Position numbers and translations under genes: made by a program. Source: Dehalococcoidia bacterium (GTDB lineage Bacteria; Chloroflexota; Dehalococcoidia; UBA2979). Taken from it: 61,631 bases of DNA. The stretch spans positions 1 to 61,631 of the forward strand of contig WHSU01000017.1 of the NCBI GenBank assembly GCA_009379925.1. The letters run 5' to 3'. Below the pieces are notes generated by a model, which worked only from the letters and a program-made list of their open reading frames with translations, made no database searches and was not told the origin of the DNA. How positions within the stretch are numbered: position 1 is the first letter of the stretch; each line of letters starts with the position of its first letter. Shown here in pieces: positions 1 through 41,916 of this stretch.

Positions 1-695
1 AGGAGCACCGGCAATGGCAGGGAGCCGCTGTGCATCAGGGTGTCGATATCCATGCAGCCAGAATCCGTCCGCACGATCCGGCCCCGCTCCAGCACGATGG
101 CATGCCCCTGTGGGTTCTCCGGCGTTTCCTTCACGATGATGCGGTACTCGCCGGCGGGCCAGTACGGTACCGAGCGAGGAGTTGCGGGAAGTTCAACCAC
201 CGCGTACAGAGATCCTTCGACGATCGAGGCCAGCGCCGGACGCGCGTCCCGAAGGAATGTCCCTTCGCACTGAACGACCGGGAAGACGGACACGACGGTC
301 CCGGGAGGCTCGCTTGGCTCGCAACGGGGAGGTCCACCGACTTCGCCAACGGTGGTACAACCCGCCTGCTGGTATTCGACCAGGGCGATCAGCCCCTCGA
401 GGTCGCCGGCCTCGAGCATCTGGAGGACTGAGTCCACGGCCGGGATCCCGGTGGTACCCACGGCGGGCGTACTGGTACTGGCGGCAGTCGCCGTCGCGGT
501 CCCGCCGGTAACTGTCGCTGTCGCCGTCCCATGGGTGACCCCCGCGCCATCCGAGCAGCCCGCGATGAGCGCGATGCTCAGGGCAATCATCACGAACGCT
601 TGCGAACTGAAGGCTCTCGGGCCAGCTCGTTTCGGTCCCACCACCGGGGCCGGCGATTGCTCGGAGATCGTGCTCTTCGTCAACAAATGCTCCAT
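1..695 (-). CDS. predicted lipoprotein, 3' end cut by window edge
   Basis: An open minus-strand frame runs from an ATG at 695 to the window edge without a stop, so the C-terminus is missing. A basic stretch (PKRAGPR) is followed by a hydrophobic segment ending in the lipobox LIAGC near residue 49, and then by a Thr/Ala/Gly-rich linker. This predicts an exported, lipid-anchored protein. The remaining roughly 170 residues contain several Cys and show no family I recognise. The lipobox lies far from the ATG, so a GTG start about 20 codons downstream may be the real one. It lies 76 bases after the 193-residue secreted protein and may share its transcript. Confidence 0.6.
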   Translation of the reverse strand, partial: MEHLLTKSTISEQSPAPVVGPKRAGPRAFSSQAFVMIALSIALIAGCSDGAGVTHGTATATVTGGTATATAASTSTPAVGTTGIPAVDSVLQMLEAGDLEGLIALVEYQQAGCTTVGEVGGPPRCEPSEPPGTVVSVFPVVQCEGTFLRDARPALASIVEGSLYAVVELPATPRSVPYWPAGEYRIIVKETPENPQGHAIVLERGRIVRTDSGCMDIDTLMHSGSLPLPVL

Positions 696-771
696 CTTCC
701 AGTCAACGCCCCGCCGCGAGCCCGGTGCAGGCGAGGCATCCGTCCACCCTCCAGCGGGACTCCGCGTCGAC

Positions 772-1353
772 TCAGGATCCGCCAGGCGTTGGTCGGTTCT
801 CGAAGTAAAGATTCGACTCGCAGTCCAGGAACGCATCACTCGCAGGGCTTGCCAAGTACGTGTATGTCGGGCCAGCCGGCTCGTAGAACGGTCCCGATAC
901 GTTGACCTCTTCGACGAGCCGGTCGATGTCAGCCTGGGTCGCCGTGTCCGGACTGCTCGCCCACGTCCCGTAGCCGTGCCCCTGCATGCAGTGGACGAAT
1001 GCAGGCCAGCGAGGGTCATTTACGGGATCGGCTTCCTTCCGCTCGTTGGTCAGCGCTCGATCGTCGTACGGCGGTATCGAGAAGAACCCACGTTCGTCGA
1101 TGAAACGCGAAGTTGACGGTGGTGGTGGAGCTTGAGAAGGATCCGTAATCACCGCCTTAGTCAGCGGAGTATAGGTCGCCGCTTCCTTCGCCCGCTTCTG
1201 ATCCCAATCCTCGCCGACACGTGGTTGCTGAGCCCCTCCGGTCGCCACGTTCACGGCCGCGAACATTCCAAAGGCGATGGCCAAGGCGAACACCGCGATA
1301 GAGGCTCTATTAGTGTAAAGCTTGATCGCGTGCCTCGTTAGACTTGCTTTCAT
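772..1353 (-). CDS. small secreted protein of unknown function
   Basis: This encodes 193 residues with an N-terminal membrane or signal segment (about residues 16-36) and a Pro-rich stretch near residue 75. The C-terminal domain has recognisable landmarks: DPRWPAFVHCMQGHGYGTW, then TQADIDRLVEEVN, then DAFLDCESNLYFENR, with two Cys that could pair. The start overlaps the stop of the upstream gene as ATGA, so translation is probably coupled. A decayed second copy of the same domain lies at 2278-2604, so the family was duplicated here. I recognise no function. The location is probably outside the cytoplasmic membrane. Confidence 0.7.
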   Translation of the reverse strand: MKASLTRHAIKLYTNRASIAVFALAIAFGMFAAVNVATGGAQQPRVGEDWDQKRAKEAATYTPLTKAVITDPSQAPPPPSTSRFIDERGFFSIPPYDDRALTNERKEADPVNDPRWPAFVHCMQGHGYGTWASSPDTATQADIDRLVEEVNVSGPFYEPAGPTYTYLASPASDAFLDCESNLYFENRPTPGGS

Positions 1354-2099
1354 CAGTACGTCCCGTTAATGAGAGGCTGGTGGTAATAAAAGATGTCATC
1401 GACGCGGTCAGTGACGGGCTCTAAGTAGTAGCGTGCCGTGTTGTACCGCGAGTATGCGTTGCCCTCCATATGAAGGTGCTCGTTAGTCGAGCAACCAGGA
1501 GAAGGCGACGAGCCGAGTTGGGCGACATCAGCGACCAGGATACCGCCAAGGCGGAGATTGTTCAGCGTATAGTCCGGATCCCACCAATAGGGATCGGTAG
1601 AGTACGGATTGTTCCACGTGGCTATCGAACTAATGCGCTCGTTGCCGACGTGTTGGTAGATCGCATGGATCCACGTAATTATGTTGCCTGCTGTGTCATA
1701 GAAGTAGATCTTTACGTACAGTTTTCGTCCGTTCCATTCAGCGCCGGTCTTGTCAGCACAAGCGGAACTGATGTTCCAGTCCTGCATCCAACCGCCAGAG
1801 ACGTTGGTCGGCAGGTAGTCCAGCTGAGCAAAGATCCAGTGATCAGGGTTCCCGTTGCCTATGTCGAATGGAGTATTGCCTCCAGAGTGCGGGCCGGCTG
1901 CCCCACATGGCGCCCACAGTGGAGGATAGTAGCATTCCGCATTCCAGACATTCGCCCAGATCCCTGACAGCACGGCTATTTCGCCATGCGATGCTTCCGT
2001 TGGCTTCCGTACGCTCAACACCGCGGCAGCGGCGGCGAGTAGCAGTAGAAGCCATGTCGCGGTGGTTAGTACCAAGCGACGGCGTGGTATTAGTACCAA
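1353..2099 (-). CDS. secreted M23-peptidase-like protein
   Basis: This encodes 248 residues with an Arg-rich N-terminus and a hydrophobic signal or anchor segment (residues 8-30). The C-terminal half follows the order of the LytM/M23 metallopeptidase fold: H71...D79 after a Gly-rich turn, YQHV at 148-151, GILVADVAQLG at 186-196, then CSTNEHLHMEG at 203-213, which resembles the zinc-binding HLHFE motif. The first ligand pair is spaced H-x7-D rather than H-x3-D, so catalysis is uncertain. M23 enzymes usually cut peptidoglycan cross-bridges. GC content is near 52 percent, clearly below the neighbours, which suggests acquisition. It is coupled (ATGA) to the downstream 193-residue secreted protein. 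Confidence 0.6.
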   Translation of the reverse strand: MVLIPRRRLVLTTATWLLLLLAAAAAVLSVRKPTEASHGEIAVLSGIWANVWNAECYYPPLWAPCGAAGPHSGGNTPFDIGNGNPDHWIFAQLDYLPTNVSGGWMQDWNISSACADKTGAEWNGRKLYVKIYFYDTAGNIITWIHAIYQHVGNERISSIATWNNPYSTDPYWWDPDYTLNNLRLGGILVADVAQLGSSPSPGCSTNEHLHMEGNAYSRYNTARYYLEPVTDRVDDIFYYHQPLINGTY

Positions 2100-2277
2100 C
2101 TCAGCAATCCCCTCGAGCCGAATCCAGTACGTTCTTTCCGTGGAACTCCAGAGCGATGTCCCCCGGACTCGCTCCTGTTATCGCCCTGCTCGCGTTCAAC
2201 ATCCTCGCCGCCATCCTCCGCGAGCGCTTCCGCCGCGTTTAGGGTGGTGAACCCCCTTGGGACCGTCCGTGCTTCGC

Positions 2278-2604
2278 TTACTGCGGCGTCGAATCAGGGC
2301 CGGAGCCGGCGAGCCGGTTCTCGAAGTACAGGTGCGATTCGCACCCGAGGAACGCGTCACCGCCCGGGCTTTGGGATATAGGCCGTGCCGGCCGGCCTGG
2401 CTTTGTAGAACGCCCGGATGCATTGACCTGCTCGACGAGCGCATCGATGTCCGCCTGCATCGTCGCATCCGGATTGGCATAAACGTGCCGAAGCCGCGTC
2501 CTCGCATGCAGCAGACGGACGTGGGCCAGCGAGGGTTTTGCACGGGGTCGGCTGCCCGTTCCTCGTCGGTCACCTGCCGGATCGTCGTACTCCGGGATCG
2601 TCAT
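2278..2604 (-). pseudogene. decayed paralogue of the 772-1353 secreted protein
   Basis: Pieces of the same domain as in the 193-residue protein appear in order but in alternating frames. PEYDD is in one frame; EERAADPVQNPRWP and the Cys/Gly-rich stretch are in the next; ATMQADIDALVEQVN is back in the first; LQSQAG...LYPKA is in the other; and DAFLGCESHLYFENR is in the first again. At least four frame changes are needed, so no intact product is possible. It lies just left of the mobile element and points the same way as the intact copy. Confidence 0.8.
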
Positions 2605-2776
2605 CGCGCTCCGCTGTCGTTATGAGGTTGTTATGAGAGTCACAGAGACGGTAACGTTTTTGTTACCTAACATCAACCGTTTGTCCTAGCAGAGTGCTGA
2701 AAGAGGGCAGCGGAGGGGATCCGTGACCGCGCGGTGACCTGCGCGTGATCCGGGCGGGGAGGAGGCGGTGGATTCG

Positions 2777-3148
2777 CTACGCGACGGCTCGCCGGGGCAG
2801 TTTGGGGTGGCAGGCGCGCGGGTCATGGGCGCAACCTTTCCAGCCGCCGCCGCTGACCGGTTCCCCCGGGGGCTCTGTCCGCACCTCAAGCGCTGCGACC
2901 AGCTCGTCCAGGTACGCGAGCTGCCGCTCCCGGCGATCCACTTCGGCCACGGCCTGCAGCCTGGCGCGCTCGATCTGGTCGCGCTGCTCGACCACCTTGT
3001 TGCGCACGGGCAGAACGTAGAGCGAAATCACGTCGGCAACGAATCTCGTCCTCGTCTCCCTCGGCCACGCAGCTCCAGTACCTCTCATCAGAGACGGGGG
3101 AGCGGCGACACATTCAGGGATGTCAGTACAGGTATTGGCTGCGGACAT
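2777..3148 (-). CDS. small coiled-coil protein of the mobile element
   Basis: The reading frame holds up to 123 residues. The start is uncertain: a GTG reading VISLYVLPVRNK, about 40 codons in, is the most natural because what precedes it looks non-coding. That product has a short hydrophobic N-terminus, a charged helical segment (VVEQRDQIERARLQAVAEVDRRERQ) likely to form a coiled coil, and a Cys/His-containing tail (CAHDPRACHPK). It is the last gene of the minus-strand mobile-element series. No family is recognised. Confidence 0.45.
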   Translation of the reverse strand: MSAANTCTDIPECVAAPPSLMRGTGAAWPRETRTRFVADVISLYVLPVRNKVVEQRDQIERARLQAVAEVDRRERQLAYLDELVAALEVRTEPPGEPVSGGGWKGCAHDPRACHPKLPRRAVA

Positions 3149-3313
3149 GACGAGTCACCGCGGCGCTTCGTGCCCGACATGAGGGATCGTCAACGGCGCC
3201 GAGCCACCCAAGGTCACACGAACTGACACTGCTCACCGCCGATCGTGAGCAGCGACGAGAACGTCGCCCGGACCATCCTCCCCCGGCGACCCGAAGACGT
3301 CCTCCAACGCAGC

Positions 3314-3649
3314 CTAGCAGGCCGCCGCATCGCAGTCCTCGTGTGCGTCCGCCTGCTCCGGTCCCACCACCTGTGCCGCCGCTCCTGGGGCCGCACCGGC
3401 CTCCGGGTGGTACTCGGGCCAGCCCGTCACCTCCGCGACCGTGAGCAAGGCCTCGGCGAGGAACTTCAACCGTCGCTCGTTGAAGATCTCGCGGGCGATG
3501 TCGCGGGACATCTCCTCGCCGCCGAGGTCCCGCTTGAACACCGGGATCTCGGCGCCCGGCGGCAGCAGGCCGGCCAGCTCCTCGAGCAGCCCGTGCACTT
3601 GCCCTTCGATCTCGCTGCGCCGCTTAATCAACGCTCCCCTTGCTGCCAT
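3314..3649 (-). CDS. hypothetical mobile-element protein, 111 aa
   Basis: This is a 111-residue, mostly helical, charged protein (SEIEGQVHGLLEELAGLLPPG, then ARE(I)FNERRLKFLAEALLTVAEVTGW) with an Ala-rich acidic tail. It has no signal peptide and no membrane segment. It sits 11 bases after the 75-residue gene and is transcribed with it, downstream of the terminase genes where phages usually place structural or packaging accessories. The sequence is unlike portal or capsid proteins. Function unknown. Confidence 0.55.
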   Translation of the reverse strand: MAARGALIKRRSEIEGQVHGLLEELAGLLPPGAEIPVFKRDLGGEEMSRDIAREIFNERRLKFLAEALLTVAEVTGWPEYHPEAGAAPGAAAQVVGPEQADAHEDCDAAAC

Positions 3650-3660
3650 CAGTGCCTCCT

Positions 3661-3888
3661 CTACGGTGCTTCGAGCGCTTCGACGCGCTGCCGCAGGTCG
3701 TCCACGCCGTCGCCGATCCAGGCGGCGAGCTCAAGGACGTAGCGGTGGCGGCTGCCCGTCGGGTCGCTTCCGTCGTCGCGGAACTCCGGGGGCGGGACCG
3801 CCACCAGCGGCGAAAGCGCCGCGAGCACCAACTGCAGGTAGTTGTCGACATCCGCCCGACGCTGCGCCTGGACAAGTCGTGTAGCCAT
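3661..3888 (-). CDS. hypothetical mobile-element protein, 75 aa
   Basis: This is a 75-residue protein with a hydrophobic patch (NYLQLVLAALSPLVAV) and a helical C-terminus (ELAAWIGDGVDDLRQRVEALEAP). A ribosome-binding site (GGAGG) precedes its ATG. It lies 9 bases after the 125-residue gene and 11 bases before the 111-residue gene, so it belongs to the same transcript as the terminase. No family is recognised. Confidence 0.55.
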   Translation of the reverse strand: MATRLVQAQRRADVDNYLQLVLAALSPLVAVPPPEFRDDGSDPTGSRHRYVLELAAWIGDGVDDLRQRVEALEAP

Positions 3889-3897
3889 CGTTGCCTC

Positions 3898-4275
3898 CTA
3901 GAGCCTGACCCGCGCGAGTCGCGGGTGATTGCGAGCGGCGTTCTCCCGCTCCTCGATCAGCCGGCTCTTGAGCGCCGGCCACTCCTTGTCGAACTGGGAA
4001 GCGTCGCCGCCTACATCGATGTAGCGCTGCCGGCGCGACTGGCGTTCCGCCTCCCATCGCGCCCGCTCCTGCTCGCGGTGCTCCTCAGCCGCGACGTCAG
4101 CCGCCCGCTCACGCTTCTCGGCGGCCTCGAGCGCGTCCTCCAGTTCCTCGGACTCGCGGCGGTCGCGGGCCCGGGCGTTGCGGCCCGCCTCGTGACCGGT
4201 GTCCCAGCTGCCCGCCCGCTCGCGCACGTGCTTGAGGTCCTGGCGCAATTCCGCCGCCGTCCTCGTGTCGTACAT
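3898..4275 (-). CDS. highly charged helical protein of the mobile element
   Basis: This encodes 125 residues dominated by Arg, Glu and Ala, with a long predicted helix or coiled coil from about residue 35 to 85 (ARDRRESEELEDALEAAEKRERA onward). It begins 14 bases after the terminase large-subunit stop. Position and composition would fit a scaffold-like or packaging accessory role, but nothing diagnostic is visible and I do not assign one. Confidence 0.55.
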   Translation of the reverse strand: MYDTRTAAELRQDLKHVRERAGSWDTGHEAGRNARARDRRESEELEDALEAAEKRERAADVAAEEHREQERARWEAERQSRRQRYIDVGGDASQFDKEWPALKSRLIEERENAARNHPRLARVRL

Positions 4276-4289
4276 GCCTCAGTCCCTTC

Positions 4290-5927
4290 CTACCCCGCTC
4301 TGACGCTCGCCAGGCGGTCAATCACCTGCTTGCTCGCCGAAATCGGCACGACATCTCGCGCCTCGTACGCCGCCGCCCGCGCGCGGAAGCCCTCACTCAG
4401 GAAGTTCTCCAGATAGAGCAACACCTGTACCAGCGAATCGACTTGATCGTCGTGGGCGACCGACGGGAACCCGAAGAGCTCCGCCTCGAAGTCGGCGAGC
4501 CACGGCACGCCCTCAGACGGCGCCGGCAGCAGCACGCACCCGTTGCGCGTCCAGACCGCCGCCTGCGCCGCCCGGTACTCCTTGCTGCCGCCAGGCTCGA
4601 ACGGGATCAGCAGGCCGGCCAACCAACCCGGCGCCGACGCCCGCAGCGTCTGGAGCGCCGAGATGCCGCTGCCCTTGTCCTCGATCAGCACGCCGCGCAA
4701 CTTCAGGTCCCGGTTGTGCCGGCGCGCCATCGCCTCGATCGTGCTCGGCAGGTCCGGGAACGCGAGCCGCTCCCGGTAGGTCTCACGGACCGCGAGCCGA
4801 TAATCCGGCATGAGCTCGACCACCACGGCGGACGTGTAGTCGCTCGTGACGCTCTCCTTCATGGCGGTGTCGACGGAGATCCAGCGGCCGGCGCAACGGT
4901 TGACGTGGCCCCGGTCATCCGCGTCGAAGCGCAGCCCATCGAACCACTCCCGCCGGAACGTCGCGCCGCCTCGGCTGGTGGGCATGCCCTGGTAGAGCGC
5001 GTCGAAATCCACGCTGCTTGACCGGATCTTCTCGAGCCGCGACAGCGGGAAGCGGGCCGGCCACAGCGCCTCGCCCACCTCGCGGCCCAGCGGGTCGCCC
5101 GCCTCCGCGATGGCGGGCACCCGCAGCTCTTCCCACTCGCCTGGCTCCGCCTCCAGTAGCCGGCCCGCGAGGTCGTCCTGGTGCCAGCGCGTATTGCACA
5201 GGATGACGGCGCCCAGGCCCTCCAGCCGCGTGCTGGCCACGTCGGAGTACCAGTCCCACGCCGCGTCCCGGTAGACCAGCGAGTCCGCGTCGCGGCGGTT
5301 CCGGATGGGGTCATCGATGAGCAGGACATCGGCGCCCTGCCCGGTGATGCTGCCGCCCACACCCGCCGCGAGGTAGCCACCGTCGCGCCCCTCGATGTTC
5401 CACTCGTCAGCAGCCGACGAATCGTCCGCCACCGTGACGCCGGGGAAGATGGCCTGGTACTCCGTCGACTGCGTGATGTTGCGCGCTCGGCGCCCGAACC
5501 CCCGCGCCAATCGCGCGGTGTAGCTGGTCATCATCACCCGACGGTCCGGGTTCCGACCGAGGAGCCATGGCGGGGATGTCTCGGACACGAGGGTCGATTT
5601 CCCGTGGCGCGGGGGAAAGGTGACCACCAGCTTGGGCACCTCGCCGCGCTCCACGCGCTCCAGCGCGGCCGCCAGCGCGACGTGCACCGCCGCCGGGCGG
5701 TATTTCGGCTTCACGAGGCTGGTGAATTCGATCAGGCTCTCCCGCGCCGCAGCGCGCGCCCAGGGCCGCAACGTCCGGCAGACCGGGCATCGCTCCGTCC
5801 GGTCGGGCTCGCCGCGCTGAGCGGCTTCCTGTGCAGCCTGACAGGCGGAGCACGGGCCGCCGTTGGCCTTCGCCTCCGAGGCGAGGCGGCCCACGCGGCG
5901 CCGCAGGGTGCCGGCGGGATCGCTCAT
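4290..5927 (-). CDS. phage terminase large subunit
   Basis: This is the DNA-packaging motor ATPase and nuclease. The 545 residues carry a Cys pair set near the N-terminus (CSAC at 26-29 and CPVC at 47-50, possibly a zinc site), Walker A PPRHGKST at 105-112, Walker B VLLIDDP at 201-207 and the coupling motif CNTRWHQDD at 244-252. The C-terminal RNase-H-like nuclease has acidic residues D353, E416/D417 and D493/D494/D497 in the expected order. Length is typical for TerL. It is followed by four small genes and not by portal or capsid genes. It appears intact, with no frameshift. Confidence 0.93.
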   Translation of the reverse strand: MSDPAGTLRRRVGRLASEAKANGGPCSACQAAQEAAQRGEPDRTERCPVCRTLRPWARAAARESLIEFTSLVKPKYRPAAVHVALAAALERVERGEVPKLVVTFPPRHGKSTLVSETSPPWLLGRNPDRRVMMTSYTARLARGFGRRARNITQSTEYQAIFPGVTVADDSSAADEWNIEGRDGGYLAAGVGGSITGQGADVLLIDDPIRNRRDADSLVYRDAAWDWYSDVASTRLEGLGAVILCNTRWHQDDLAGRLLEAEPGEWEELRVPAIAEAGDPLGREVGEALWPARFPLSRLEKIRSSSVDFDALYQGMPTSRGGATFRREWFDGLRFDADDRGHVNRCAGRWISVDTAMKESVTSDYTSAVVVELMPDYRLAVRETYRERLAFPDLPSTIEAMARRHNRDLKLRGVLIEDKGSGISALQTLRASAPGWLAGLLIPFEPGGSKEYRAAQAAVWTRNGCVLLPAPSEGVPWLADFEAELFGFPSVAHDDQVDSLVQVLLYLENFLSEGFRARAAAYEARDVVPISASKQVIDRLASVRAG

Positions 5928-6051
5928 GACGCGCCTCCACTGGCGAGTAGATAACTGGGCGCGCGCGAGGTGGAGCAGACGCCGTTGCCGAACCTACCGA
6001 GAGCGCCGGTCGGGAGTGCCGCGAGGACATAACTGGCGAGCAGGTTCTCCA

Positions 6052-6453
6052 TCAGGAAGCGCCCTTCGCGTCCTTATCGCCCGCCCGCGCAGCCTCGATG
6101 TCGCGGACTCGCTGCTCCAACTCGCCCGCCGTGGCGGTGGCGATCATCGCCCGCGCTACAGCGGCCGCCGCCGTGGCCTGACGAGCCGTGATGCGGCCGG
6201 CCAGCACGTCTTCGAATGCCCGCTCCAGGCGTTCGAACACCGGAACCAACCGCGGCGGCATCGCCTTCTGAAGGCGGATGAGCTTGGAGCTGTTGCGCCC
6301 GCCTCTCCGGCTGGCCTCAGCGCGTTTCTCGGCCAGTCGCGGGTCGTGAGCCCAGCACACATCCACGTCATCGAGACGCGCGCCTCCGCAGCGCTCACCA
6401 TCGCGCCGGACAGATACGCAGCGTTCGGGATCGGGTGGCGGCAGAGTGTTCAT
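6052..6453 (-). CDS. probable terminase small subunit-like protein
   Basis: This encodes 133 residues with an N-terminal Cys/His cluster (C12, C22, C33, H36 in RCVSVRRDGERCGGA...CWAHDP), followed by RRGGRN and a helical C-terminus. Proteins with this Cys-rich N-terminus and an Arg/Gly segment often lie directly upstream of terL and act in DNA recognition for packaging. Its ATG overlaps the helicase stop as ATGA, and terL follows 124 bases later. The role is inferred mainly from position; a generic zinc-binding DNA-binding protein is the alternative. Confidence 0.6.
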   Translation of the reverse strand: MNTLPPPDPERCVSVRRDGERCGGARLDDVDVCWAHDPRLAEKRAEASRRGGRNSSKLIRLQKAMPPRLVPVFERLERAFEDVLAGRITARQATAAAAVARAMIATATAGELEQRVRDIEAARAGDKDAKGAS

Positions 6454-8150
6454 CGGTCATCCCCAATCGGGTGGCTGGGCGCCGGGTGTTGCGTTGGCTG
6501 GTTCGGGGTCTGTGACGGATGTGGTGGTTGCGACGGATGAATCCGTAAACCCCCCTCGGGAGAGGGGTAATTTTTGAACGAGAGAGGTTTCTGGATTGGT
6601 CCGTCAAAACCACCACATCCGTCACGCTCAGGTTCAGCGGCGAGCCCGATGCCGTAGTACGACTTCCCGGTGCGGCTCCTTGCGGAGGCGAAACGGGAGC
6701 CCACCCGGCGTCCGAATCCTTGCTTTGTCAGGCGCTCGGGCGGCTTCAGGCGCAGTTCGTCACACCACCGCTCGTAGGCCTCGAAGAGCTGCCCGGCCGG
6801 CACCCGGCAGTCCTCGCCTACGACGCATGTGTCGGACAAAAAGTCGCCCAGCGGGTCCATGGTCGTGCGGTATTCGGCGGTGGCGGCCTCGACCTGGGGC
6901 GCGGTGCCGAGGCCGTCGCGTTGCCAGGCGACGCAGCCCTCGACCAGCCACGCAAGGATTGCGCTGCCGGCGACGGATGGGTCGCGAAGCTGGGCGCGCA
7001 CACCGGGGTCGGGCTTGGCGAACACCGTGGTGAAGGGGACCTCGCGCAGGCGGCGCCAGATGCCGGAGTCGTCGTCGGGGATGCGGGGTCGCTCGTTGGC
7101 GCAGATTATGATCGTGAACTGCGGCGTGAACTCAAAGGTGCTCTGGTACAGGCCGCGCGTGGCCATGCGGTCGCCGCCGGCGAGCTGTTTGACGAGCGCC
7201 GCGGCGAGCTTCTGATTGCCTTCGGTTTCGGAGGCTGCCACGAGGCGGGCGCCGACCATGCCGGCGATTTCCGGGCGCGGTCCGCCCGTGTGGCGGCGGG
7301 CGGTGAACGCCTCGAAGTCGGCGGCCTGGCCGTAGTCGCCCACCGCCGCCAGGACGGCCTCTTTGATGGTCGACTTGCCGGTGCCGCCCGGACCGTGGAG
7401 GAAGGCGAAGATGTCTTCCGACGTGACACCGGCGAGACAGTAGCCCATCAGGCGCTGCACGAACGCCCGCGTCGCCGCATCAGGCAGCGCCTCCGCGAGG
7501 AACCGCTCCCACAGTGCGTGCTGCGCCTCCGGGTCGTGGTCGACCGGCGCCAATTTCGTGATCAGGTCGGAGCGACGGTGCGGCCGCAATTCGGCCGTGC
7601 GCAGGTCGACGGTGCCGTTGCGGCAGTTCAGCAGCCACGGGTCGGCGTCCAGGCCGCCCGGCTCCACGCTGATCCCGGGCTCCGACTTCGCCAGCTCGAC
7701 GGCCGCCTTCAGCCGGCGTTCGCCCTCCGAGGTCATCGCCCACTTGTTCAGCACAGAGACCTGCTCCTGCGACTTCGCGTAGGCCTTCTGCGCCTCCAGG
7801 TACACGTCTCCGTCCTCAGGGACGCCGCGCTCCCTGAGATCGTGCAGTTCGGCGAGCAGGCGACCGGAGTAGGCGTGGGCGTCCTCCGCTTCCCGGCGCA
7901 CCTCCCGGATGACGTCACGGGCCAGCTCGAAGATGCGCCCACCTGGATCCCGCCGCCAGCGGGCGTCATCCCACTCGAACCACGTGGCGAGCGGCCAGCA
8001 GTAGCGGATGTTGTCGCCCTGCACCCGGACCAGGCGGCGCGCGTTTCCGAGGTCAGTGCAGTTAACCGAGTCACCGAGCAGCTGCTGGTGCTGCGCCGGC
8101 AGCGTGTCGGGCGCCGAGGAGACCATCCGCATCACCTGCTCGGCGCTCAT
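6450..8150 (-). CDS. D5/P4-family replicative helicase (primase-helicase C-terminal type)
   Basis: This is a superfamily-3-type helicase of 566 residues. The N-terminal region to about residue 200 matches the D5_N layout (DPWLLNCRNGTVDL at 170-183). The ATPase core has Walker A HGPGGTGKST at 252-261, a Walker-B-like strand at 301-310 (ARLVAASETE), sensor 1 IIICANERPRI at 347-357 and an arginine pair WRRLR at 365-369. The start at 8150 is chosen because it overlaps the primase stop as ATGA; longer readings run through non-coding frame. It forms the replication module with the upstream Toprim protein. Related proteins drive replication of phages and P4-like satellites. Confidence 0.9.
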   Translation of the reverse strand: MSAEQVMRMVSSAPDTLPAQHQQLLGDSVNCTDLGNARRLVRVQGDNIRYCWPLATWFEWDDARWRRDPGGRIFELARDVIREVRREAEDAHAYSGRLLAELHDLRERGVPEDGDVYLEAQKAYAKSQEQVSVLNKWAMTSEGERRLKAAVELAKSEPGISVEPGGLDADPWLLNCRNGTVDLRTAELRPHRRSDLITKLAPVDHDPEAQHALWERFLAEALPDAATRAFVQRLMGYCLAGVTSEDIFAFLHGPGGTGKSTIKEAVLAAVGDYGQAADFEAFTARRHTGGPRPEIAGMVGARLVAASETEGNQKLAAALVKQLAGGDRMATRGLYQSTFEFTPQFTIIICANERPRIPDDDSGIWRRLREVPFTTVFAKPDPGVRAQLRDPSVAGSAILAWLVEGCVAWQRDGLGTAPQVEAATAEYRTTMDPLGDFLSDTCVVGEDCRVPAGQLFEAYERWCDELRLKPPERLTKQGFGRRVGSRFASARSRTGKSYYGIGLAAEPERDGCGGFDGPIQKPLSFKNYPSPEGGLRIHPSQPPHPSQTPNQPTQHPAPSHPIGDDR

Positions 8151-9079
8151 CCGGACGCCTCCGCCCGGTCGAGGAGGATGTCGTTGAAGTCGGCGCCGGG
8201 CTCGGGTGGCACGGCGATGTGGACGCGGCGGCCCTCGCCGCGCCAGCGGCCCGCGGCGGCCTGCGCGGCCTGGATCCCCTCCGCGTCGTGGTCGGCGGCG
8301 ATCAGCACCTCCGAGGCCAGCGGCAACGCGGGCAGCACCAGGCGGCGGATTCCGACCGCCGACAGCGCGGCCCACGCCGGCATCCGTGTCGCCTGCAGCA
8401 CGGACAGGGCCGTCTCGATGCCCTCGGCGACGATGAGCTGGTCCGTGGCCCGCGCGAGGCGTACGGCGCCACCGGCGACGTGGCCCAGCATCATCCGGAC
8501 GGGCTCGATGGTGGACTTGTGCCCCGCATCGTCGAGGTAGGTGCGGGCGACGGCGGACACGCCGGCGTGGCCCTCGTGTTGCACGGCGGCGACCATGGTC
8601 CACAAATGCCGCGCGCTTGGCGCATGCTTGGTGCGGTTCGCGCGCAACGTGGGGATCCGGGCGGCCTCCAGGCCGCGGCCGCGCAGGTACACCTCGACCG
8701 GCGTGCCGGTGATCGCCCCCGCGCGCCGCCAGATGGCGGCCGCAGCCTCTCGGCGAGCCTCGTCTCCGTCGCGCACATCGTGGAGACGGTGTTGATCTCG
8801 ATCCGGATCCCGTGGTGCTGCGATGCCACCGTGGACGCGCCCGCAGCCACATGGCGCGTCGAGGCGGTGGGGGTAGAGGCCATCCGGGCCAGGCATGAGG
8901 GCGCCGGCGTGCTGCTCGCGCTGGCAGCGGGCATACGCGCCGTCCGCCGAAAGGAATCCGCCACAACGGCGGGCCTGGCCGCGACGCAGGCCGTCGTGTC
9001 CGCCACAGACCGGGCAGGGCCGCGAGGCCGTCCACCGCTGACCAGGGGTCACCGACGTCGGCGTCGGGCCGGTGGTCAC
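8147..9079 (-). CDS. Toprim-domain primase of the mobile element
   Basis: This encodes 310 residues from a GTG that overlaps the previous stop as GTGA. An N-terminal zinc finger (CPVCGG...RRCGGF...ARCQRE) recalls bacteriophage primase CHC2-type fingers. The Toprim domain follows: IVAEGIETALSVLQA supplies the conserved Glu, VLIAADHDAEG the DxD, and a PGADFNDIL tail is typical of phage and plasmid Toprim_3 proteins. It would make RNA primers for the SF3 helicase encoded immediately downstream. Both genes are intact and tightly coupled. Confidence 0.88.
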   Translation of the reverse strand: MTTGPTPTSVTPGQRWTASRPCPVCGGHDGLRRGQARRCGGFLSADGAYARCQREQHAGALMPGPDGLYPHRLDAPCGCGRVHGGIAAPRDPDRDQHRLHDVRDGDEARREAAAAIWRRAGAITGTPVEVYLRGRGLEAARIPTLRANRTKHAPSARHLWTMVAAVQHEGHAGVSAVARTYLDDAGHKSTIEPVRMMLGHVAGGAVRLARATDQLIVAEGIETALSVLQATRMPAWAALSAVGIRRLVLPALPLASEVLIAADHDAEGIQAAQAAAGRWRGEGRRVHIAVPPEPGADFNDILLDRAEASG

Positions 9080-9381
9080 TTCGCCCACCACGGAATTTCC
9101 CGGCGACGCTCCGCACGGCGGGCATCGGCGGCCATTGCTCGGCACCGTCGCTCGGCGTCGCGGCGGTCGCGTGGCCAGTAGGGGAGCGAGCACCACCCGC
9201 ACCTGCATACCAACTTGCAGAGGCCGCGAGGGTGCCGCAGCTCCGTGAGGCTGTGTCCGCAACGCGGACACGCCGGCGAGGCGGGTGCGGGGCCATGGCT
9301 GTCACCCCGCATCCCCCCGCCGGACGCACCCGAAGACGGACCGATGCCCGCGGCCAGTCTCTGGGTGGCTGAGGAGGTCAC
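9076..9381 (-). CDS. small zinc-ribbon protein of the mobile element
   Basis: This encodes 101 residues from a GTG that overlaps the upstream stop as GTGA. The core is a likely zinc ribbon: CPRCG followed by CKLVCRCGWCS, then a basic helical tail rich in Arg and Ala that ends in EIPWWAK. Overlaps at both ends make it part of a tight early operon just before the primase. Zn binding and nucleic-acid binding are inferred from the motif; function unknown. Confidence 0.65.
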   Translation of the reverse strand: MTSSATQRLAAGIGPSSGASGGGMRGDSHGPAPASPACPRCGHSLTELRHPRGLCKLVCRCGWCSLPYWPRDRRDAERRCRAMAADARRAERRREIPWWAK

Positions 9382-9647
9382 CCCTGCGACTTCTTCCGGC
9401 GCGCCGTCGCCGACTTCAGGGCGAGACCGGCGAAATGCCGGCGGCGCGCGCGATCGAGTCGCTCGGCCCGTTCGGCCTCCGTGAGGCCGGGAGCGACGGC
9501 ATCGATGAGATCCAGGAGCCGCTCGTCGAGCGACCGCCGCGCCGCGGCACGCGCCGGTGCGGTGAGGTCGCGAGGATCATGAAGGGTGTGGGCCGTCAGC
9601 CCGCCGAGGCGGGCGCGCAGGCGCCTCTCGGTTGCGGATAATGTCAC
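9378..9647 (-). CDS. hypothetical early mobile-element protein, 89 aa
   Basis: This encodes 89 residues, GTG start, helical and very Arg/Ala/Leu-rich (RRSLDERLLDLIDAVAPGLTEAERAERLDRARRRHFAG), with a basic tail ARRKKSQG. Its stop overlaps the next gene as GTGA. Basic composition and operon position suggest nucleic-acid binding, but no motif proves it. Confidence 0.5.
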   Translation of the reverse strand: MTLSATERRLRARLGGLTAHTLHDPRDLTAPARAAARRSLDERLLDLIDAVAPGLTEAERAERLDRARRRHFAGLALKSATARRKKSQG

Positions 9648-9712
9648 TGGTGGTTCGCTCTCGCTCGGACCGCCCGATGTGAGTCGGGTCGCCGGCGAGA
9701 GCGGTCAGAAAG

Positions 9713-10165
9713 TCAGCGCGCCGGCGGCCCCATCGAAGCGGGCGGCGCGGCGAGGCCGTCGAGGGCACGCGCACGGAGCGCCGCGCTGGCGGCGGGCGTC
9801 AGGCGCATACGTAGGGGAAGATCCTCGGCGGGCAGACCGGGAGCGTATGGCGCGTCGCCGGCGTCCGTGACGAGAAGGTCCGCCGCGACGGCCTCGCGGA
9901 CCGCGGAGCGGGCGGCGGCGCGCAGACCACGGACTTCCGCGAGTTGCCGGCGGCCGTCCGCCTCGCGGAAGTCACGGATCTCCCGGCCGTGGCGCGCCTG
10001 CGTCTCCGCGCCGATCACGCCGGTGCGCGCTTCCTCTGCCGTCGGGAGCGATACCGGCGCCAGCGTGCGCGCCCGCACGATGCCCTCGTCATCGAGGTCG
10101 CGGGCGGCGCCCCAGGAGGCTTGCACAGCGCTCCAAACAGCGTCCGAACGTCTGTTCGTTTTCAT
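9713..10165 (-). CDS. hypothetical early mobile-element protein
   Basis: This encodes 150 residues from the ATG at 10165 (MKTNRRSDAVWSAVQASWGAARDLD); an earlier in-frame ATG at 10195 adds ten residues and has no ribosome-binding site. It is helical, rich in Ala and Arg, with the central segment REIRDFREADGRRQLAEVRGLRAAARSAVREAV, and carries no Cys or membrane segment. It is the first gene after the integrase, 41 bases away. No family recognised. Confidence 0.5.
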   Translation of the reverse strand: MKTNRRSDAVWSAVQASWGAARDLDDEGIVRARTLAPVSLPTAEEARTGVIGAETQARHGREIRDFREADGRRQLAEVRGLRAAARSAVREAVAADLLVTDAGDAPYAPGLPAEDLPLRMRLTPAASAALRARALDGLAAPPASMGPPAR

Positions 10166-10206
10166 TGGGCGGGACGGTACCATGTGTTGCAGCACAAGTC
10201 CAGCGC

Positions 10207-11223
10207 TCAGAGCCGGTCGCCGGGACTACGGGCACGGTGCGCGGCGATCGCCCGCTCCTGGGCGCGGCTGGCGCCGTAGCGCTGGAGCATCTGCGGCGAA
10301 CTCCAACCGGCGATCTTCATCAGGTCGCCCTCCGAGCCGCCGCCCGCAAGCCATGCGCTGGCGAAGCTGTGTCGCAGCTGGTGGGGATGCACATGCCCCA
10401 GCCCGGCGTCCTCCGCCCGGCGCTTCACGATCTGGCGGATGCCGTTGTCCGTCAGGCGGCCCCTTCTTCCGAGCCAGAGCGATGGGTCGCGGGCGGCCGG
10501 ATGCCGCGCCCGTGCCCGCGTGTAAAGGTCGAGGGCACGGGTGGACTTGTCGCCGATCGGCACGGGCCGCAACCGGCCGCCCTTGCCGAGCACGACCAGG
10601 ATCCCCTGGTCCAGGTCGACGTCGTTGCGCCCGTCCTCGCGGTCATCCCACCCGGAGATGCCGCGGGCGTGCGGGTCCCACTGGAGCCCCGTCAACTCGC
10701 CGAGACGCAGTCCGCAGTCCAGGAACACACGGACGATGGCGAGGTCCCGCTTCGCTTCGAACGTGCGGCCCTCGCACGCCGCCACGAGCGCCCGTTGCTC
10801 ACCCTCGGACAGCGACTCGACGGGCTGCTCTACCACGCGCGGCTGCGGCATGCGCGCCATCGGATTGGCCTCGACCTCGCCGTCCTGCACTGCCCAGTCC
10901 CAGAACCGCCGCAACGACATGAAGCGGTTCTTGACGGTCGCGCTGGAGCGGCCGCTCTCCGAGAGCGCGATCAACCAGTGCTCGATGTGCTCCCGGCGCA
11001 CGCTTCCGAGCGGCTCCACGGGCATGCCGGCGTCCAGGGCGAACACGAAGAACTGCCGGACGGCCTCCTCGTAGATGCGCACCGTCTTGGGGCGGAGGCC
11101 CTGGTAGCGGCACCAGCGCACGAACGACACGATCTCGGGCTCGACCGGCAGGGCCGGACGCTCGCCCGGATTGACCCGCGGTACGGCGCCCTCGACAATG
11201 GTGGATGCGGAGTCGGAGGTCAT
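10207..11223 (-). CDS. tyrosine recombinase / integrase
   Basis: This encodes 338 residues. The N-terminal SAM-like core-binding domain (about residues 28-120: [27 protein letters not shown]...) is followed by the catalytic domain. All catalytic residues are visible: R173 in GLRLGEL, K214 in GKGGRLR, H281-x-x-R284 in [11 protein letters not shown]307 in the H/W position of IAGWSS, and nucleophile Y316 in QRYGAS. It is intact and reads away from tRNA-Thr, whose 5' end is 118 bases from its start. It would integrate and excise the 2.8-11.2 kb element. A housekeeping XerC/D role is less likely given the phage genes downstream. Confidence 0.92.
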
Positions 11224-11341
11224 GGTTCTCCCTCGATGTGCCGTAACTGGGCGATAACCGGTCGCGATAGTTATCTTCTCATGGGAGCGCTGGACTTACC
11301 ACCTGCAACGGGTTATCTACTGTAGATGAACCTGGTACCGA

Positions 11342-11416
11342 GCCGGTGTAGCTCAGTGGTAGAGCAGCTGTTTCGTAAACAGCAGGCCGAGGGTTCGAAT
11401 CCCCCCGCCGGCTCCA
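11342..11416 (+). tRNA. tRNA-Thr (anticodon CGT)
   Basis: A 75-base cloverleaf. The acceptor GCCGGTG pairs with CGCCGGC (one G-T), the D arm contains GCTCAGTGGTAGAGC, and the anticodon stem GCTGT/ACAGC encloses loop TTCGTAA with anticodon CGT. The T arm contains GGTTCGAATCC. The 3' CCA is encoded. It is the only tRNA seen in the window and lies beside the integrase. Confidence 0.95.
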
Positions 11417-11470
11417 TGTCACCACACGCCCGTAGACAACCGGCGCGGACCGCGCCGCACCAGGGATCGT

Positions 11471-12202
11471 ATGAGCAAACTTCGCACTCGAATTCGCGAG
11501 ATCGGCCGTCCCGGCGATGGCCCGCTGGGCTTTGCGCGGCTCGCCGGCCGCGATGAGCGCCGCCACATGCTGGTCATGGCGCAGGTCTCGGACGGCGAAG
11601 CCGCCCGGGCCGCCATCGAGGCGGGGGCGGACGTCCTGCTGGCCGGCAGCCCCTCGGCGGTTGCCGCCGCCGTGGAGGCCGCGGGGAGCCGGCCCGTGGG
11701 CGTGCGCCTGGAGTCCGGCACCGCCGCGGAGGCCAGCACGGCCGTGGAGGCCGGCGCAGACTTCCTCGTCTTCGACGACGCCCGGACCGAAGCCCGCGCG
11801 CTCAGCGGGCACGACGCCGGGCGCGTGCTGCTCCTGGACGACGACCGCAGCGAAGAGCGCCTGCGCTCGCTCGCGGGGCTGGCCCTGGACGCGGTCCTCG
11901 CCGGCGACGCGACCCCGCGGATGACCGTGCGCGACCAACTGCGCCTCCGTCGCATCGTGGAACTGTCCGGCGCACCCCTGATCATCGAGGCGGGCACCGG
12001 GGCCGAAGAAGCGGCGCTGGAGACCTGGCGTGATGCCGGGGCGCCTCTCGTCCTGGTGGGCGGCGCTGAGGCCGTGCGAGCCGTTGTAGAGGCCGCAGGG
12101 CGCGTGCCGGCCCCTCGAAAGCCCCGCGCGTCCGGCGCGATGCCCCTGGTTCCGGCTGCCTCCACCACTGCGTCGCACGACCACGACGACGACGACGATT
12201 GA
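11471..12202 (+). CDS. TIM-barrel-like protein with Asp/His-rich tail
   Basis: This encodes 243 residues. Repeating alpha/beta units (HMLVMAQVSDGEAARAAIEAGADVLLAGS, RPVGVRLES, AGADFLVFDD, PLIIEAGTGAEEAALETWRDAGAPLVLVGGAEAVRAVVEAAG) resemble a small (beta/alpha)8 phosphate-binding barrel such as flavin- or phosphosugar-binding enzymes, but no catalytic motif identifies a reaction. The last nine residues are HDHDDDDD-like, an unusual acidic tail that could bind metal. It starts 54 bases after tRNA-Thr and may be read from the same direction. Enzymatic role not assigned. Confidence 0.65.
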   Translation: MSKLRTRIREIGRPGDGPLGFARLAGRDERRHMLVMAQVSDGEAARAAIEAGADVLLAGSPSAVAAAVEAAGSRPVGVRLESGTAAEASTAVEAGADFLVFDDARTEARALSGHDAGRVLLLDDDRSEERLRSLAGLALDAVLAGDATPRMTVRDQLRLRRIVELSGAPLIIEAGTGAEEAALETWRDAGAPLVLVGGAEAVRAVVEAAGRVPAPRKPRASGAMPLVPAASTTASHDHDDDDD

Positions 12203-28518: not shown

Positions 28519-29982
28519 CTACGAGAACAGCGCCACGGTCGCGCGGTCGGCGGCAGTGTAGAGCGGCGAGGCGTAGATACCGAGGACGACGGTCGCCACC
28601 AGGAGCACCCCGGTCGCCAGGTAGCCCGTGGGCGACAGCCGCCAGCGCGCCGGGTTGCCGGAGGGCTCGTACAGGTACATCTGCTTGACGACCTGCAGGT
28701 AGTAGTAGAGCGACACGGTGCTCATGATCAGCGCGATCATCACCAGCCAGGTGTAGCCACCGTCCACGACCGACTGGAAGAGGATGAACTTCGTGAGGAA
28801 GCCCGCGAGCAGTGGCATTCCGGCCAACGAGAACAGGCCGGCCGTCATCACCAGCGCCAGGAACGGGTTGGTCTGCGCCAGCCCTCGGAACTCGACGATG
28901 TCTTCCTTCTGCGTCTGGTTATAGAAGGCGATCACCGCCATGAACACCGCGAGGTTCGTGACCAGGTAGCCCCCCATGTGCAGCAGCAGTGCCGACGCGG
29001 ACACCTCCGAGATGGTCACGATCGCCATCAGCATGAAGCCCACCTGGCCGATGGAGGAGTAGGCGAGCAGGCGCTTGATGTTGCGCTGCTGGAGCGCCAC
29101 CAGGTTCCCCAGCACCATGGTCGCCACGGCGACCACCGCGATCATCCACTGCCAGTCGTCGATCGCCGGCAGCAGCGGACCGGCGAACCAGCGCAGGAAC
29201 AGCGCCATGGCCGCGGCCTTCGAGGTGGCGGACAGGTAGGCCGTCACCGGCAGGGGGGCGCCCTCATACGCGTCGGGGGCGTACATGTGGAAGGGCACCG
29301 CGGACGCTTTGAAGCCGAGCCCGCCCACGATCAGCACCAGGCCGAGCAGCAGCGGCAGCTCGACATCCTCGACGCCCGCGCTGAGCGCGGCCGCGATCTC
29401 CGGGTACTGCGTCGAGCCCGCCACGCCGTACAGCAGGCTGAGCCCGTACAACAGCATCGCCGAGGCGACACCACCGAGGAGCACGTACTTCAAAGCCGCC
29501 TCACCGGAGCGTTGGTCGTTCCGGGCCAGCGAGACGATCGTGTAGAGGGAGAACGAGAGCACCTCGAGCGCCAGGTACGCCGTCAGCAGGTCGCGCGCGG
29601 CGGCCATGTAGATGGCGCCGGCGGTAGAGAGCAGCAGCAGGCCGTAGAACTCCGCGTTGTGCGCCACGTACCGCTCGATGTACTCCCACGACCCCACGAT
29701 GATCACCAGCGCCGTCGCGATGAAGAGCAGCCGGAAGAACGTGGTGAAGTTATCGATCGTGATCAGGCGCGCGAAGTCGGTGTCGGAATCGATCCAGGTG
29801 AGGCTCAGGCCACCCGCGATCACCAGCCCGAGGATGGCGAGGCCGGGAAGCGTGCGGCGGCCCAGGTTCAACTCGGTGCGGAAGGCGTCCAGCCCGACGA
29901 TCAGCATCGCGGTGACCGCGAGCACGATCTCCGGGAGCAGCAACTCGTACTGGAAGTTCAGCTCGTTGCCCAGGACGTCCAC
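28519..29982 (-). CDS. nuoN: NADH-quinone oxidoreductase subunit N
   Basis: This encodes 487 residues, strongly hydrophobic with about 14 membrane helices, as expected for an antiporter-like complex I subunit. Typical stretches include AYLALEVLSFSLYTIVSLARND with the conserved Glu, KRLLAYSSIGQVGF and GGYLVTNLAVFMAVIAFYNQ. It is the last gene of the cluster, 135 bases after nuoM. It contributes to proton translocation in the membrane arm. Confidence 0.95.
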   Translation of the reverse strand: MDVLGNELNFQYELLLPEIVLAVTAMLIVGLDAFRTELNLGRRTLPGLAILGLVIAGGLSLTWIDSDTDFARLITIDNFTTFFRLLFIATALVIIVGSWEYIERYVAHNAEFYGLLLLSTAGAIYMAAARDLLTAYLALEVLSFSLYTIVSLARNDQRSGEAALKYVLLGGVASAMLLYGLSLLYGVAGSTQYPEIAAALSAGVEDVELPLLLGLVLIVGGLGFKASAVPFHMYAPDAYEGAPLPVTAYLSATSKAAAMALFLRWFAGPLLPAIDDWQWMIAVVAVATMVLGNLVALQQRNIKRLLAYSSIGQVGFMLMAIVTISEVSASALLLHMGGYLVTNLAVFMAVIAFYNQTQKEDIVEFRGLAQTNPFLALVMTAGLFSLAGMPLLAGFLTKFILFQSVVDGGYTWLVMIALIMSTVSLYYYLQVVKQMYLYEPSGNPARWRLSPTGYLATGVLLVATVVLGIYASPLYTAADRATVALFS

Positions 29983-40997: not shown

Positions 40998-41055
40998 CGC
41001 CAGAGCATACGGGCGCTATCGTCGATACGCTGCTCCGTGCGGGGAAGGAACCGAG

Positions 41056-41916
41056 GTGGACTTCGACGATGCGCAACGGTGGCTCCGCCCATCCGCAGAC
41101 GAGGCCTTCGCGGCCTGGCGCTCGCTCGTAGATGCGAACTACGAGCAGATCGAGCGGCTGCGGGAGGACCATGAGGAGGCGCCCGCGGACTTCTACGCGC
41201 CGCGCGCCCGCGCCTTCCGCCCCGGCGGCCCGCCGCCACCCGAGGTCCCCGCGCTGCTGGAGTTGCTTCGGCCGTCCGATTCGCTCCTGGACATCGGCGC
41301 AGGTGGCGGGCGATATGCTGTCCCGCTCGCTGCGCGAGTGCGCGAGGTGCTGGCCGTCGAACCGTCGTCCTCGATGCGCTGGACGCTACAGGACGCCGCG
41401 CGCCACGCCGGCGCGAGCAACGTGCGGCTCTACCCGTCGCGCTGGCCGGCGGCCCACCCGCTCGGCATCCCGAGCGTCGACGCCACCTTCGTGGCGCACG
41501 TGCTGTACGACGTCCCGGACCTGCGGACCTTCCTGGAGGCGACCGAGGCACACACCCGCCGCCTCTGCGCCGTGGTCCTGGGCGACATGGCGCCCAGCCG
41601 CGGCATCGAGGCGGTGTGGGCGGAACTGCACGGCGAGCCGGCACACGTGCTGCCGGCGCTCCCGGAGTTCCTGACCGTGCTGGCCGGGTGGGGGCGCCGC
41701 TTCGACGTCCGCACCTTCCCGCTGCCGGCGCCCCCGCGCGTCACCCTGGATGAGGCGGTGGCGAGCCAGCGGTCGCGGTTTTGGTTGCGCGAAGGGTCGC
41801 CGAAGGACGAGCGGCTGCGCGCGCTCCTCGCGGAGCACTTCGGCTCACCCGATGGCCTGGTGCGGCTCCCCCCGCGGCTGCGCTACACCGCGCTCGTCAC
41901 GTGGCGCCCGCGGTAG
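41056..41916 (+). CDS. class I SAM-dependent methyltransferase
   Basis: This encodes 286 residues from a GTG at 41056, preceded by GGAAGGA. The SAM-binding motif LLDIGAGGGRYAVPLAARVREVLAVEPSSSM (about 79-110) with its GxGxG loop and acidic end is clear, followed by VDATFVAHVLYDVPDL in motif IV position. No fused domain is seen. The substrate is unknown. Divergent from the phosphatase gene; the start codons are 58 bases apart. Confidence 0.8.
   Translation: MDFDDAQRWLRPSADEAFAAWRSLVDANYEQIERLREDHEEAPADFYAPRARAFRPGGPPPPEVPALLELLRPSDSLLDIGAGGGRYAVPLAARVREVLAVEPSSSMRWTLQDAARHAGASNVRLYPSRWPAAHPLGIPSVDATFVAHVLYDVPDLRTFLEATEAHTRRLCAVVLGDMAPSRGIEAVWAELHGEPAHVLPALPEFLTVLAGWGRRFDVRTFPLPAPPRVTLDEAVASQRSRFWLREGSPKDERLRALLAEHFGSPDGLVRLPPRLRYTALVTWRPR

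Follow-up and report, generated by a model that had tools for sequence, protein, structure and literature searches.

The window analysed here is the whole of contig C4 (WHSU01000017.1; 61,631 nt, numbered from the contig's first base) of a Dehalococcoidia bacterium of the phylum Chloroflexota, known from a draft genome (G000) of 71 contigs that is 87% complete. Its left part carries an integrated element, E1, which continues past the left end of the window. Twelve minus-strand genes, running from 11223 to 2777, encode integration, replication and a predicted DNA-packaging motor, that is, a large terminase subunit (TerL) and a predicted small one (TerS-like). A second element with related packaging genes, E2, lies on another contig of the same genome. 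The twelve genes of E1 are as follows.

10207..11223, minus: tyrosine integrase (PF00589, 9.2e-22; PHROG integrase, 3.1e-46)
9713..10195, minus: x160, no assigned family (no significant Pfam or PHROGs family; no E2 homologue)
9378..9647, minus: x89, no Pfam or PHROGs family
9076..9381, minus: x101, weak zinc-ribbon match (E2 homologue, 73% identical)
8147..9271, minus: Toprim primase, DUF7146 and Toprim_3 (PF23639, 5.3e-21; PF13362, 1e-18), with the true start probably nearer 9090
6450..8150, minus: D5_N helicase/primase ATPase (PF08706, 1.2e-29; PHROG DNA primase, 1.2e-122)
6052..6453, minus: TerS-like, predicted small terminase subunit with an N-terminal zinc knuckle and a helical hairpin, directly before TerL
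4290..5927, minus: TerL, Terminase_6N/6C (PF03237, 1.7e-13; PF17289, 2.9e-08; PHROG, 3.1e-100)
3898..4275, minus: x125, in the place of the portal-sized gene of related phages (43% identical in E2)
3661..3888, minus: x75, no Pfam or PHROGs family given
3314..3649, minus: x111 (E2 homologue, 51-52% identical)
2777..3148, minus: x123, no E2 homologue

Pfam and PHROGs recognised TerL and the integrase, as well as the D5 helicase and the Toprim primase, and the motifs are intact: GLRLGE, HQLRH and the terminal RY in the integrase, GPGGTGKS in the helicase, AEGIETA and DHD in the Toprim domain and, in an alignment of the TerL proteins of both elements, the segments that we take to be the Walker A, Walker B and nuclease motifs. 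The 14 E1 proteins run against PHROGs include none of a head, portal or tail family besides the terminase; x125, x75 and x111 matched no structural family there, and the TerS-like protein had no match at E ≤ 1. No AlpA or Staphylococcus aureus pathogenicity island (SaPI)-type regulator was recognised in E1 or E2. As regards decayed genes and structural remnants, which would mark a defective prophage, the motifs are kept and PHROGs named no structural remnant; one cargo paralogue looks broken. These results bear out most of what a first-pass annotation had read from the letters of the window, namely twelve genes on one strand for integration, replication and packaging, a complete TerL, conserved active sites without visible decay of the core genes, no portal, capsid or tail gene (here, among the assembled E1 proteins given to PHROGs) and a Chloroflexota host.

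Borders of E1

The borders of 2777 and 11223 proposed at first had to be moved. No convincing direct repeats bounding E1 were found within the window alone, and a genome-wide search with window 11224-11460 as query placed the 42-bp attachment (att) repeat on two contigs. The right border is the att core at 11337-11378, and the left border is its copy on contig C60 at 467-508. The features at and between these sites are listed below.

11337..11378, plus: attR core, the 5' half of tRNA-Thr(CGT) up to the anticodon loop, with an exact 42-bp copy on C60
C60 467-508, minus: attL core, identical to window 11337-11378
11342..11416, plus: tRNA-Thr(CGT), restored by E1 and adjoining the integrase (ARAGORN; 75 of 75 bases equal to the G006 tRNA)
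11224..11336, no strand: attR arm region with the short repeats TTATCTACT and CTGCAACGG, both found again in the attL arm on C60
1..2776, minus: left cargo part of E1, between the att sites, with a reading frame that runs off the end of the contig
772-1353 and 1353-2099, minus: intact secreted-looking cargo proteins, neither with a PHROG family
about 2196-2604, minus: broken-looking paralogue of the cargo proteins (judged by eye)

On C60, an ABC transporter ATPase and permease precede the tRNA half, which is followed by 466 bp of other DNA and the contig end. The tRNA-Thr site is undisrupted in all four relatives whose context was fetched (G006, G008, G020 and G022), and in each of them the ATPase, the permease, tRNA-Thr, a homologue of the gene at 11471 and the MerR gene are grouped together; of 44 genomes, 43 have a match to this MerR gene, whose place in the window is right of E1. 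Given the left flank on C60 and the undisrupted site in the relatives, C60 comprises the initial 466 bp of E1 together with the flank to its left, and window 1-11378 is the remainder of E1. Since attL lies on C60 and attR at 11337-11378, window 1-2777 also falls within E1. At its C60 end, E1 is similar to the left terminus of E2 (84% over 68 bp, 91% over 35 bp). The repeats TTATCTACT and CTGCAACGG, present on both sides of E1, are likely arm sites of the integrase.

The secreted-looking proteins encoded at window 772-2604 are paralogous, and C60 ends in a similar short stretch (22 bp, 95%). A repeat shared by the left end of the window and the end of C60 may have broken the assembly at this point.

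E2 and the packaging block common to both elements

The search for TerL in 99 related genomes returned a second copy in the same genome, on contig C66. It belongs to E2 (C66 29024-39796), a gap-free element of 10.77 kb on an 86-kb contig, bounded by an exact 15-bp att repeat with copies at 29024 and 39782, the right copy lying inside the 3' end of nrdJ. The peptide CMNCGSTSGCS* is encoded on both flanks of the E2 core with differing codons, so that E2 appears to have swapped the end of nrdJ for its own version while the old end stays at attL; a duplicate end with different codons is what an integrase element leaves when it repairs the gene that it enters.

E2 has a different integrase from that of E1 and further encodes an HTH_17 protein and a DnaB-like helicase with a reading frame that stays open into the TerS-like domain. 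In E2, an FDXHR zinc protein is encoded between the TerS-like gene and TerL. None of the 11 E2 proteins run against PHROGs (a few very short frames were left out) belongs to a head, portal or tail family. Site-specific integration, as expected of satellites, is thus seen in the att repeats of both elements and in the undisrupted E1 site of the relatives, and a full particle gene set is lacking from E2 without a gap and from E1 in its assembled parts.

The two elements have in common the gene order TerS-like, TerL, x125, x111, and they also share x101, whereas the integrases and replication modules around this packaging block differ. Identity between the E1 and E2 copies is 73% for x101, 49% for the TerS-like protein, 67-69% for TerL, 43% for x125 and 51-52% for x111. 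The two TerL proteins diverge by 31-32% over 534 aligned residues, with no stop. The ratio of nonsynonymous to synonymous substitution rates (dN/dS, NG86) is 0.35 for TerL, 0.36 for the TerS-like gene and 0.24 for x101 (0.36 with YN00). The gene x125 begins 14 bp past TerL in E1 and 8 bp past TerL in E2. Among 5.77 billion proteins, in a search limited to shared words, the E1 and E2 copies of x111 stand alone, and a scan of IMG/VR for x125 confirmed no relative.

The first-pass annotation had named a deletion scar, or portal or capsid genes in a close relative, as signs of a defective prophage. E2 has the same TerL-x125 junction as E1 and no portal, and is complete between its att sites; among the matches listed, the nearest TerL proteins with a portal-sized neighbour reach 44-51% identity in their best segment.

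Relatives of TerL and of the TerS-like protein

In a first scan of genome contigs with both TerL proteins, 64 stretches matched a pattern and no relative was confirmed; a second scan was evaluated for the best 80 of 581 loci. Within these 80, the nearest TerL with readable context (L104, the same contig as L360) is 51% identical over residues 285-545. Scans of IMG/VR gave 16, at least 80 and 18 loci, with a best segment identity of 47% among the matches listed, and the closest metagenomic TerL proteins (P0005-P0009) are 53-59% identical to that of E1. Overall, the E1 TerL falls within phage TerL diversity, with 39-51% identity to TerL proteins of phages and phage-like loci among the matches listed.

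Two-thirds of the related loci examined (8/12; L290, L342, L343, L360, L361, L363, L366 and L367) have a portal-sized gene directly after TerL. With PHROGs, the three such genes that were run gave a portal in L361, a weak portal match in L342 and no match in L363; a capsid was also named in L361. In the phage contigs L342 and L343, zinc-knuckle proteins stand directly before TerL, their resemblance being judged by eye.

A protein search gave the TerS-like family 84 members, counting that of E1, most of them on short contigs. None of 50,697 phage and 72,556 plasmid records matched the E1 protein, and a scan of IMG/VR confirmed no relative. Within the phylum, 27 of the 400 genomes searched (that of E1 and E2 among them) carry TerS-like genes, and the matches other than E1 and E2 themselves number 41. 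Profiles built from E1 and E2 were run against the loci fetched by then, and only the loci named here were read gene by gene; weak profile matches (E from 4e-11 to 8e-4) stand beside TerL in L009, L011 and L012 from IMG/VR and in L042 and L095 from genome contigs.

Wide stretches were read for 18 of the 41 TerS-like loci. One-half of them (9/18), versus none of 16 controls, hold an integrase, a recombinase or a replication protein like those of E1, E2, L275 or L280. L275, one of the nine, matched no query proteins but those taken from itself, and the controls, fetched with other aims, are no random sample. An E1-type TerL was found in none of the 18, other TerL families not having been systematically tested there. 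The clearest mobile element among these loci was delimited as follows.

L284 (G434, contig C2), 8780-14847, about 5.98 kb: integrase, D5 helicase, primase, TerS-like protein and a second tyrosine recombinase

It is bounded by an 83-bp repeat (43 + 39 bp around one mismatch) that spans the 5' half of tRNA-Arg, and in predicted gene content it resembles E1 minus the terminase.

Two further TerS-like loci, L275 and L276, lie on one contig (C1) of a near-complete genome (G696). They encode large serine recombinases and different replication proteins, and share an apparently identical TerS-like gene and similar downstream genes; an att repeat was sought at both, and none was found. The window's genome itself holds a third, more distant TerS-like gene near tRNA-Phe (L289; contig C46, about 41038-41352), perhaps a remnant.

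AlphaFold predicted for the TerS-like protein an N-terminus of short strands followed by a long helical hairpin (mean predicted local distance difference test score 88.8, predicted template modelling score 0.49).

Interpretation and competing explanations

With moderate confidence, we interpret E1 and E2 as integrated elements that spread as phage satellites, their own terminase loading their DNA into a shell from another element. From the observed integration and gene content, we infer excision and the later steps as follows. The integrase would excise the element, which would be copied by the Toprim primase together with the D5 helicase in E1 or the DnaB-like helicase in E2. The TerS-like protein would select the element's own DNA, and TerL would dock on a foreign portal and fill a shell made elsewhere. 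As a guess, x125 and x111, which stand in the portal's place in the gene order, may adapt TerL to the borrowed shell or reshape that shell. The satellite suggested by the first-pass annotation holds in being mobile, capsid-less as assembled and equipped with its own TerL; the coordinates given for it do not.

Several observations weigh against this interpretation. The putative satellite status is read from gene content and integration sites, and E1 itself is read from its assembled parts, on either side of the C60-C4 assembly gap. No spread is seen within the host family, since an E1-like TerL was found in none of the 43 other genomes searched. TerL normally fits its own portal, and a motor without a portal is therefore mechanically awkward. 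A portal-sized gene is also missing after TerL in three of the 12 related loci (L362, L364 and L365), so that this trait is not unique to E1 and E2, and a further locus (L368) ends too soon to be judged. The dN/dS values (NG86) of x111 (0.60) and x125 (0.83) indicate weak constraint. At E ≤ 0.001, neither PDB nor BFVD gave a match to the fold predicted for the TerS-like protein, and because of this the TerS label is taken from gene position; the name TerS-like rests on that position and the zinc motif. Finally, the family also occurs without an E1-type TerL and hence may perhaps be no terminase subunit.

This last point leads to the first competing explanation, which we consider unlikely: a family of integrative, plasmid-like elements with an integrase, a primase and a zinc-bearing TerS-like protein that acts in replication, segregation or regulation, where TerL was picked up by chance. 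It would account for the nine TerS-like loci with mobility or replication genes and no E1-type TerL (against none of the controls, L275 being self-matching), for the five recognised genes of the G434 element and for a TerS-like fold that matches no solved TerS. Yet the TerS-like gene stands just before TerL in both E1 and E2, with one zinc gene between them in E2, and this block has outlasted the replacement of the neighbouring modules; the zinc-knuckle proteins directly before TerL in L342 and L343, similar by eye, likewise speak against this explanation.

Somewhat more doubtful is a prophage lineage that has lacked structural genes for a long time, with TerL and the TerS-like gene left over and movement by other means or none. 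The place of the E1 TerL inside phage TerL diversity, the weak constraint on x125 and x111, and L365, which lies beside a valS-looking gene and looks like a remnant without a portal, all agree with such a history. A leftover TerL should decay, however, whereas here TerL, the TerS-like gene and the TerL-x125 junction are all intact at two sites despite the TerL divergence between them, and the small genes x125, x75 and x111 show no structural family in PHROGs.

As a possible source of a shell, the window's genome was searched for four capsid, portal and terminase families (PF03354, PF04860, PF05065 and PF05133). PF04860 and PF03354 had no match; PF05065 gave one capsid gene on contig C59 and PF05133 one portal on contig C27, both away from E1 and E2. 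A helper prophage in the same genome was rejected on these four families, the C59 and C27 genes belonging to a conserved cluster, with no prophage seen there.

C59 9318-13012 (L288): capsid, SU10-type adaptor and a 668-aa protein, among host-looking genes
C27 30982-34045 (L370): divergent TerL and portal, among host-looking genes

The C59 capsid occurs in 35 and the C27 TerL in 48 of 98 genomes, both together in 31 (Fisher p = 3e-9, uncorrected for kinship). Two genomes, G074 (L314) and G084 (L317), have a single run of a small gene, TerL, a helix-turn-helix gene, portal, scaffold-like gene, capsid, adaptor and a 660-990-aa protein, several of these names being assigned by eye; the G084 run holds one inserted opposite-strand gene, and no integrase or replication gene was seen in either run. 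The head cluster is thus split in two in the window's genome and close together in G074 and G084. From its gene content, this class-wide cluster looks like a candidate gene-transfer-agent-like system; gene transfer agents tend toward encoding by multiple loci, according to the available part of a review (PMC11841831). That E1 and E2 are satellites of this chromosomal shell, contributing their own integrase, replicase and terminase and borrowing the C27 portal and C59 capsid, seems improbable.

It is very improbable that the assembly has split a whole prophage here, leaving the capsid genes of E1 in the C60-C4 gap: the gap is real, yet gap-free E2, with the same architecture, shows no such genes in its 10.77 kb, portal and capsid follow TerL in related phages where E1 has four small genes and then cargo, and the capsid and portal matches of the genome sit on C59 and C27, away from both elements.

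As satellites with their own motor, E1 and E2 can be set beside known systems, for which we follow the available parts of the cited sources. They resemble phage-inducible chromosomal islands (PICIs) of the SaPI type in being small and site-specifically integrated, with their own integrase and replication genes and a small terminase subunit (here predicted) that redirects packaging. To our knowledge, SaPIs have no TerL. These PICIs combine their own TerS with the helper's TerL (PMC10690885), whereas E1 and E2 carry their own TerL. Capsid-forming PICIs (cf-PICIs) encode both terminase subunits, as E1 and E2 are predicted to do, but their genes extend to capsid, protease, portal and connectors (PMC10690885), none of which was found between the att sites of E2. 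P4-like satellites share a primase/helicase, an integrase and the lack of shell genes; P4 depends on the terminase of P2 and on Sid (PMC10690885), whereas E1 has its own TerL. Phage-inducible chromosomal minimalist islands (PICMIs) are likewise minimal, with integrase and primase and without capsid remodelling; no packaging gene has been identified in them (PMC10803314), whereas E1 has TerL. The Streptomyces phage satellites MulchRoom and MiniFlayer have their own small and large terminase subunits, together with portal and capsid and without a primase (PMC10690885). Their gene content is the reverse of that of E1.

Some tycheposons carry terminase genes. Marine tycheposons and virion-encapsidated integrative mobile elements (VEIMEs) are small integrated elements proposed as satellites (PMC11389934). 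The Pseudomonas prophage AH14b is a 16.8-kb satellite with a Toprim primase that is packed in another phage's capsids; it differs from E1 in that no terminase was found in it (PMC4936722). In the available parts of these sources, the motor is borrowed in P4, PICI and PICMI and is encoded along with the shell in cf-PICI and MulchRoom; a motor without a shell is absent among them (PMC10690885, PMC10803314, PMC11389934, PMC4936722). Literature searches for a published motor-without-shell satellite found none among the matches listed, their coverage leaving out the tycheposon and VEIME papers and the bulk of the subscription literature. If true, an element that brings the motor alone would be a missing intermediate between motor-borrowing and motor-plus-shell satellites, and would allow a test of whether a foreign portal can be driven by a terminase. 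If E1 and E2 are satellites, such elements would moreover be placed in Chloroflexota; no paper in which Chloroflexota, satellite, prophage and terminase all occur turned up in a search of full texts.

Two other Chloroflexota genomes, both large, have a radical-SAM-looking protein, as judged by eye, after TerL in place of a portal-sized gene (L362, G609:C96; L364, G447:C49), and L362 also encodes a DNA-ligase-like protein; from these genes, the two are possibly another motor-without-shell locus.

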